This document shows positions 51,163 to 52,669 of a stretch of 52,669 nucleotides of DNA, in pieces. This DNA is from Candidatus Bipolaricaulota bacterium (GTDB lineage Bacteria; Bipolaricaulota; Bipolaricaulia; Bipolaricaulales; Bipolaricaulaceae): contig JAOACA010000006.1 of assembly GCA_026418075.1 (NCBI GenBank), positions 1-52,669 of the forward strand, read 5' to 3'. The number at the start of each line of letters is the position of its first letter. Positions within the stretch are counted from its first letter, which is position 1. The notes under the pieces are model-generated. The model saw nothing but the letters and a program-made list of their open reading frames with translations, searched no databases and was not told where the DNA came from. The position numbers and the translations under genes were made by a program.

Positions 51163-51777
51163 GTGAAAAGAATCCAGTGGTTGCTTGTCCTGCCCCTGGC
51201 CCTTGCCCTGGGCGGGTGCCTGGGGCCCGCGGGCGCCCTCCGGGCCGCCCTGTCCGTGAGCCCGGCCCAAGGCCCGTACCCGCTTGCCGTCACCTTCGAC
51301 GCCCGGGGCTCGGCCGGGGAGATCGTGGAGTACCTGTGGGTGTTCGGGGACGGGGCGACCCGGGCCGGGCCCGAGCCCGTGGTCGAGCACACCTACGCCG
51401 CCCGGGGGACGTACGAGGCCTACCTCACCGTGGTCGGCCGCGGGGGGGAGACGGACCAGGCACGGGCCTCCGTCCGCGTCCACTCCCAGCGCCCCCTCGC
51501 CCGGTTCAACGTCTCCCCAGCGAGCGACGTCCGGGTGGGGATGACCGTGACCTTCGACGCGGGCGCCTCGAGCGACCCCGACGGGACGGTGGCCGAGTAC
51601 CGGTGGGACTTCGGGGACGGGACGCGCGAGGGGACGAGCTCCCCCGAGGTGGTCCACATCTACCGCGAACCCGGGGTCTACTCCGTGAGCCTGGTGGTGG
51701 TGGACGGGGAGGGGGACGAGTCGCTTCCCGCCATCCGGCCGGTCGCGGTGAGCCCCGGCGGCTGCTGTGGAAAGTGA
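51163..51777 (+). CDS. Lipoprotein with two PKD domains
   Basis: The 204-residue product starts KRIQWLLVLPLALALGGC, a lipoprotein signal peptide with lipobox LGGC, so the mature protein would be anchored by a lipidated Cys. Two PKD (polycystic kidney disease-type beta-sandwich) domains follow, each with the signature W-x-FGDG: YLWVFGDGATRAG and YRWDFGDGTREGT, with VTFDARGS and VTFDAGASSDPDG before them. PKD domains mediate surface adhesion or protein-protein contacts. A Gly/Cys-rich end (GGCCGK) closes it. Its last 11 nt overlap the start of the ATL-endonuclease V gene. Confidence 0.85.
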   Translation: MKRIQWLLVLPLALALGGCLGPAGALRAALSVSPAQGPYPLAVTFDARGSAGEIVEYLWVFGDGATRAGPEPVVEHTYAARGTYEAYLTVVGRGGETDQARASVRVHSQRPLARFNVSPASDVRVGMTVTFDAGASSDPDGTVAEYRWDFGDGTREGTSSPEVVHIYREPGVYSVSLVVVDGEGDESLPAIRPVAVSPGGCCGK

Positions 51778-52669
51778 GCTCCAGGTCCCCGACGTCCTGG
51801 GGGCGCTCCGGGCCCTCGTCGGGGGGATCCCCCCGGGGAAGGTGACCACGTACCGGGCCCTGGCCGACGCCCTCGGGGACCCCGAGGTTGTCCGGTTCGT
51901 GGCCGGGTGGCTTGCCTCCCCGGAGGCGGAGGGGCTCCCCGTCCACCGGGTGGTCCACGCCTCGGGGGCCGTGGGGCGGAGCTGGGGGGGGACCGTGGCC
52001 GAGGCCGCCGCGCGGCTGCGGGCGGAGGGGGTGCGGGTCGTCGGGGACCGGGTCGAGCCCCTGGCCCGGTACTTCGGGGGGGAGTTCTCCTCGGACCGCC
52101 CCCTCGCCCGGCTCCAGGAGGAGCAGCGGGCGATCGCCCAGCGGGTTGTGCTGGAGCCCCTCCCCGAGGTCCGGGCCCTGGGGGCCCTCGACGTCGCCTA
52201 CCGGGAGGGGGAGGCGGTGGCCGCGTTCGTCCTCGCCGACCCCGACGGCGAGGTCCGCGATGGGCTCACCGTGGCCGTTCCCGTGGCCTTCCCCTACATC
52301 GCGGGCTACCTCTCCTACCGGGAGCTTCCGGCGCTCCTCTCCGCGGTCCGGGCGGCGGACGAGGCGGGGTGGGAGGCCGACGTCCTCCTCGTGGACGGGA
52401 ACGGGATCCTCCATCCCCGGCGGGCGGGGCTCGCTAGTCACCTTGGGGTCCTCCTCGACCGGCCGGCGGTGGGGGTGGCCAAGGGCCACCTCTGCGGGCA
52501 CGTGAACACGGAGGGGATGGCGATCGGCGAGTGGCGGCCCGTGGTCCTGGAGGGGGACACCGTGGGCGCCGCCCTGCGCACGGACCGGAATCGGACGCTC
52601 TTCGTCTCCCCCGGCCACCGGGCCGACCTGGGGACGGCGATCGACCTCGCCCTCCGGCTGACCGAGGGG
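51767..52669 (+). CDS. Alkyltransferase-like domain fused to endonuclease V (3' end outside the window)
   Basis: The first 301 codons are present, from GTG 51767. Residues about 1-75 resemble the DNA-binding half of O6-alkylguanine alkyltransferase (GGIPPGKVTTYRALADALGD, LPVHRVVHASGAVG). The acceptor Cys of PCHR is replaced by Val (PVHR), as in alkyltransferase-like proteins, so this part probably binds damaged bases without repairing them. Residues about 95-301 are endonuclease V, which nicks next to deaminated bases such as inosine: LGALDVAY (catalytic Asp), FPYIAGYLSYRELPA (Tyr wedge and Glu), LLVDGNGILHPRRAGLASHL (Asp) and VGVAKGHLCG (Lys). All catalytic residues are visible. Ferroplasma-type AGT-endoV fusions are a known precedent. 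The gene overlaps the lipoprotein gene by 11 nt. Confidence 0.88.
   Translation, partial: MESELQVPDVLGALRALVGGIPPGKVTTYRALADALGDPEVVRFVAGWLASPEAEGLPVHRVVHASGAVGRSWGGTVAEAAARLRAEGVRVVGDRVEPLARYFGGEFSSDRPLARLQEEQRAIAQRVVLEPLPEVRALGALDVAYREGEAVAAFVLADPDGEVRDGLTVAVPVAFPYIAGYLSYRELPALLSAVRAADEAGWEADVLLVDGNGILHPRRAGLASHLGVLLDRPAVGVAKGHLCGHVNTEGMAIGEWRPVVLEGDTVGAALRTDRNRTLFVSPGHRADLGTAIDLALRLTEG

Follow-up and report, generated by a model that had tools for sequence, protein, structure and literature searches.

Two kinds of protein that join an AGT-fold domain to endonuclease V (EndoV) have been described. The AGT-EndoV fusion of Ferroplasma acidarmanus has alkyltransferase activity (Kanugula et al. 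2005, as summarized in PMC10779285 and PMC3489907), and a 2023 review (PMC10779285) cites Tubbs et al. (2009) for archaeal fusions of an ATL domain to EndoV. The same review gives the lack of an N-terminal AGT domain, the lack of an Asn hinge and the presence of a C-terminal extension as traits of ATL proteins, states that R69 of Atl1 contacts the flipped base, and relays the speculation that EndoV in these fusions acts like the endonuclease of nucleotide excision repair (NER) or speeds scanning. Our literature search, which had most subscription journals outside its range, found nothing on such a fusion in Bipolaricaulota or Planctomycetota. As archaeal ATL-EndoV fusions are already known, the gene analyzed here is a bacterial example of a known arrangement. 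From its sequence and a structural model, we propose that its product is probably an ATL-EndoV fusion whose N-terminal domain is a non-repairing DNA-binding, and possibly lesion-reading, module serving EndoV in cis.

The window, by which we mean the whole stretch of 52,669 nucleotides analyzed from a Candidatus Bipolaricaulota bacterium, ends where its contig ends, and the fusion gene runs into this end approximately 17 codons short of a stop, as judged against the family locus L053. The product as read is at least 301 residues long; the missing 3' end was searched for in the gene's own genome, which is 86% complete, and was not found. An earlier note on this DNA had described one chain joining an AGT/ATL DNA-binding domain to EndoV, and this was confirmed by matches to PF01035 and PF04493 within a single open reading frame, both well above their cut-offs (27 for PF01035; Table 1). 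These are the only matches to either family in the 86% complete genome. The NCBIfam models likewise identify the C-terminal part as EndoV, while the N-terminal part matches ogt/Ada models, in all cases under the curated cut-offs.

Table 1. Features of the fusion gene and its upstream neighbour, in window coordinates
Feature	Position	Strand	Remarks
Lipoprotein with two PKD domains	51163..51777	+	3' end overlaps fusion start by 11 nt
ATL-like/endonuclease V fusion gene	51767..52669	+	GTG start; open to last base of window
AGT/ATL DNA-binding domain, PF01035, aa 17-89	51815..52033	+	Pfam 54.4 bits, E 1.2e-14
Tyr29, flipping Tyr position (human AGT Y114, Atl1 Y25)	51851..51853	+	
Arg43, Arg finger position (human AGT R128, Atl1 R39)	51893..51895	+	kept in window protein
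Val59, alkyl-acceptor site (human AGT C145, Atl1 W56)	51941..51943	+	codon GTC, context LPVHRVV
Arg71, adjoins column of Atl1 R69 and human Y158	51977..51979	+	
Glu87, position of human AGT E172	52025..52027	+	
Endonuclease V domain, PF04493, aa 123-300	52133..52666	+	Pfam 168.5 bits, E 1.8e-49
EndoV catalytic residue span (D142, E186, D210, K239, H284)	52190..52618	+	

The position of the gene at the end of a contig might suggest a chimeric assembly, or two genes misread as one; however, the stop-free fusion recurs in dozens of independent assemblies, single-contig genomes included. Its nearest relative, which is 87% identical and comes from another assembly, is also a Cys-less fusion. Because this relative and all family members carry the Cys-less fusion, a chimera or a sequencing error is untenable, and we regard either as practically inconceivable.

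The hallmark of AGT/MGMT proteins, a nucleophilic Cys in a PCHR motif, is absent from the window protein, which has PVHR in its place. The earlier note had read this substitution correctly, and none of the 30 aligned family proteins has Cys at this site, the residue being Val in 23 and Ala in three, while Gly, Leu, Ile and Ser each occur once. Since Val replaces the acceptor Cys, the N-terminal domain would be unable to accept an alkyl group. Other positions of the domain are strongly conserved: P58, H60, R61 and E87 are invariant in all 30 family members, including the two residues, H60 and E87, that activate the Cys in AGT, and position 71, one column off Atl1 R69, is always Arg or Lys. Comparison of dN/dS between the two domains revealed equal values, with a median of 0.30 in both and roughly 0.1-0.3 for close pairs. 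Given these equal ratios and the invariance of H60, R61 and E87, the Cys-less domain is not decaying; purifying selection acts on it just as it does on the nuclease.

Comparison of the N-terminal domain with the AGT and ATL families placed it closest to solved ATL proteins, both by profile and by predicted fold. A profile of the family domain scored 46.5 bits against the Vibrio parahaemolyticus ATL 2kif and 46.0 against Atl1, versus 36.0 against Ada and 33.2 against human AGT, with 3gva also among the closest solved ATL relatives. In an AlphaFold2 model of the fusion (mean pLDDT 96.2, pTM 0.91), the domain is predicted to keep the minor-groove helix-turn-helix fold of AGT and ATL proteins, and Foldseek aligned it to 2kif with a TM score of 0.77 and to the Atl1-DNA complex 3gx4 with a TM score of 0.69. 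It is homologous to the C-terminal domain of AGT without being preceded by the AGT N-terminal domain, and sequence alignment revealed that the Asn hinge is missing and that its C-terminal extension aligns with that of E. coli YbaZ. Two observations count against reading it as an ATL domain. The acceptor residue is Val, or in some relatives Ala, Gly, Leu, Ile or Ser, rather than the Trp of most ATLs, and the base-flipping residues vary: eight of the 30 family proteins, including most of those from the window's own genus, have Pro, Ala or Gly in place of Arg43, and six have Phe or His in place of Tyr29. In five proteins of that genus the Arg finger is gone while the remainder of the domain is kept.

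The C-terminal part of the protein appears to be an intact nuclease. The claim that EndoV retains all of its catalytic residues was borne out by alignment of D142, E186, D210, K239 and H284, which we take to correspond to D43, E89, D110, K139 and H214 of T. maritima EndoV, and Foldseek aligned this part with the T. maritima and E. coli enzymes with E values of about 1e-18. The domain would be expected to nick DNA on the 3' side of inosine and other deaminated bases. No second EndoV was found in the window's genome (86% complete) and none was seen in its relatives.

What the N-terminal domain contributes to this nuclease can be read in more than one way. The earlier note had proposed a one-piece sensor-incision enzyme, in which the ATL-like pocket would hold a flipped O6-alkylguanine while the tethered EndoV nicks the adjacent DNA, so that repair of both alkylated and deaminated DNA would start from a single protein. 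The pocket fold is kept, Arg43 and Tyr29 are present in the window protein, and the invariant Arg or Lys at position 71 lies beside the position of the base-contacting R69 of Atl1, all of which is in keeping with such an enzyme; on the other hand, the Arg finger is missing in over a quarter of the relatives, and EndoV would have to cut at a base held in the pocket of another domain. We therefore consider this mechanism rather doubtful: the weaker form of the interpretation, a non-repairing DNA- or lesion-binding module attached to EndoV, is plausible, while incision at alkylated bases is hypothetical. The lack of the Arg finger in several close relatives also weakens the case that the domain would act as a full lesion-flipping module. 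Conversely, the domain might be a former AGT that reads no lesion at all and serves as a generic clamp, merely raising the affinity of EndoV for DNA or its sliding along it. The variable acceptor residue, the partial loss of the Arg finger and the missing Asn hinge would all suit a clamp, as would the fact that the cell has this single EndoV, but the strict conservation of P58, H60, R61 and E87, and of a basic residue at position 71, is not obviously needed by one. On balance, a plain clamp is conceivable but somewhat improbable, and our preferred reading remains that of a DNA-binding module that may also read lesions on behalf of EndoV.

Among 37 family genomes, the window's own included, 31 carry the fusion (in G027 only the first part is present, at a contig end), and the 30 aligned family proteins form one fully supported clade beside fusions from Planctomycetota, most of which retain the Cys. 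When public genomes were scanned, full-length fusions also turned up in Planctomycetota, Thermoplasmata, Fraserbacteria and Aenigmatarchaeota. In other parts of the phylum, the fusion has either Cys with altered neighbours (PCWR, PCYK) or Ser (PSHR, PSYR). Fifteen of the fusions examined keep the Cys with the catalytic His replaced (PCWR, PCWK or PCYK), and in the genomes of family f5 a fusion of this kind is the only AGT-type protein found. The earlier note had held that the archaeal AGT-EndoV fusions keep the Cys, and had set the window protein apart on this basis. Our survey of the acceptor site, in which Val proved the commonest residue in the family, does not support this contrast: among the 70 Thermoplasmata fusions sampled, 18 have A, G, S, T, L, V or F instead of Cys, and archaeal ATL-EndoV fusions are cited in PMC10779285; because the archaeal sample combined the 30 best-scoring matches with 40 chosen lower ones, the Cys-less fraction is not an unbiased estimate. 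Strongly altered acceptor motifs (PFWR, PVWR, GAHR, GSHR) followed by a shortened loop were observed in 14 Thermoplasmata fusions.

In an EndoV-only tree of 151 proteins, the Cys state changes about nine times, with at least four of these changes forced by well-supported branches. A tree of the single N-terminal domain (105 columns) accepts both a clade of all fusions and a clade uniting the family domain with ATL proteins. Loss of the Cys in place agrees with the tree of EndoV alone and with that of the whole proteins, which makes replacement by an ATL domain the less likely course. An aromatic residue at position +13 (human Y158) is found in 88 of 90 Cys proteins versus 7 of 61 Cys-less ones, and in independent pairs the direction of the change is almost always the same, although there are not enough pairs to reach significance. 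Loss of the Cys together with the +13 aromatic suggests remodelled pockets, an observation that also lends something to the sensor-incision proposal. That a one-step start of O6-alkylguanine excision repair was reached several times, each time when an AGT-EndoV fusion gave up its suicide Cys, nevertheless strikes us as unlikely.

A separate Cys-type Ogt (PCHR) is encoded in 28 of the 31 fusion-bearing family genomes. Three lack a full copy: G019, in which a contig end truncates the Ogt gene, G035, which is 69% complete, and the genome of the window. On this pattern, Ogt may be what carries out direct reversal in genomes whose fusion has lost its Cys, although the pattern is not independent of ancestry. 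In raw counts, 32 Cys-less fusions occur with Ogt and five without, compared to 22 and 16 for Cys-bearing fusions, and most Planctomycetota genomes keep a Cys-bearing fusion and Ogt together. The stricter idea that loss of the Cys requires a separate Ogt in the same genome received no support from independent tree pairs and was set aside.

A stand-alone ATL with a PWQR motif is present in six of the eight fusion-bearing congeners of the window, and also in genus g5; it was not found in the fusion-bearing congeners G003 and G006. PWQR replaces PWHR in 11 stand-alone ATL genes of these two genera. The N-terminal domain might itself act as a free-standing ATL would, flagging O6-alkylguanine and bringing in UvrA for nucleotide excision repair, with EndoV acting on its own. 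Its similarity to ATL proteins and the presence of a UvrA gene in the window's genome would allow this, but the covalently attached nuclease would then be superfluous and most of the congeners already own a separate ATL, so that we judge this reading very unlikely; the same separate ATL also speaks against the sensor-incision enzyme.

Directly upstream, the gene for the PKD lipoprotein, a surface-type protein, adjoins the fusion in all 28 family loci that could be read, with the same overlap in most, and it was not found next to the fusions of other lineages.

What is new here is the bacterial spread of this old fusion, the repeated loss of its Cys together with a change in the pocket, and the coupled PKD-lipoprotein gene upstream. 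As Cys-less and Cys-bearing fusions under purifying selection occur in one tree, they offer natural pairs for tests of ATL against AGT function, which could show whether alkylation damage passes directly to EndoV; incision at O6-alkylguanine, if true, would open a new way into excision repair.

Set against known systems, the window protein combines features of several. With S. pombe Atl1, E. coli YbaZ and the V. parahaemolyticus ATL, its N-terminal domain shares the fold, the absence of the acceptor Cys, of the Asn hinge and of the AGT N-terminal domain, the C-terminal extension, and the Arg finger and Tyr; those proteins, however, stand alone and mostly have Trp at the acceptor site, whereas this domain is tethered and has Val. 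With T. maritima and E. coli EndoV it shares the catalytic residues and the fold, but those enzymes have no N-terminal DNA-binding domain and a PYIP wedge, in contrast to the PYIA of the fusion. As the Ferroplasma protein is described in the two summarizing sources, the same two domains follow one another in a single chain, AGT then EndoV, but it keeps the acceptor Cys and alkyl transfer where the window protein has Val59. The archaeal ATL-EndoV fusions, as cited in the 2023 review, likewise join a Cys-less AGT-fold domain to EndoV; in comparison to what is cited there, the window fusion is bacterial, has Val in place of Cys, and belongs to a Bipolaricaulota family that is Cys-less throughout.
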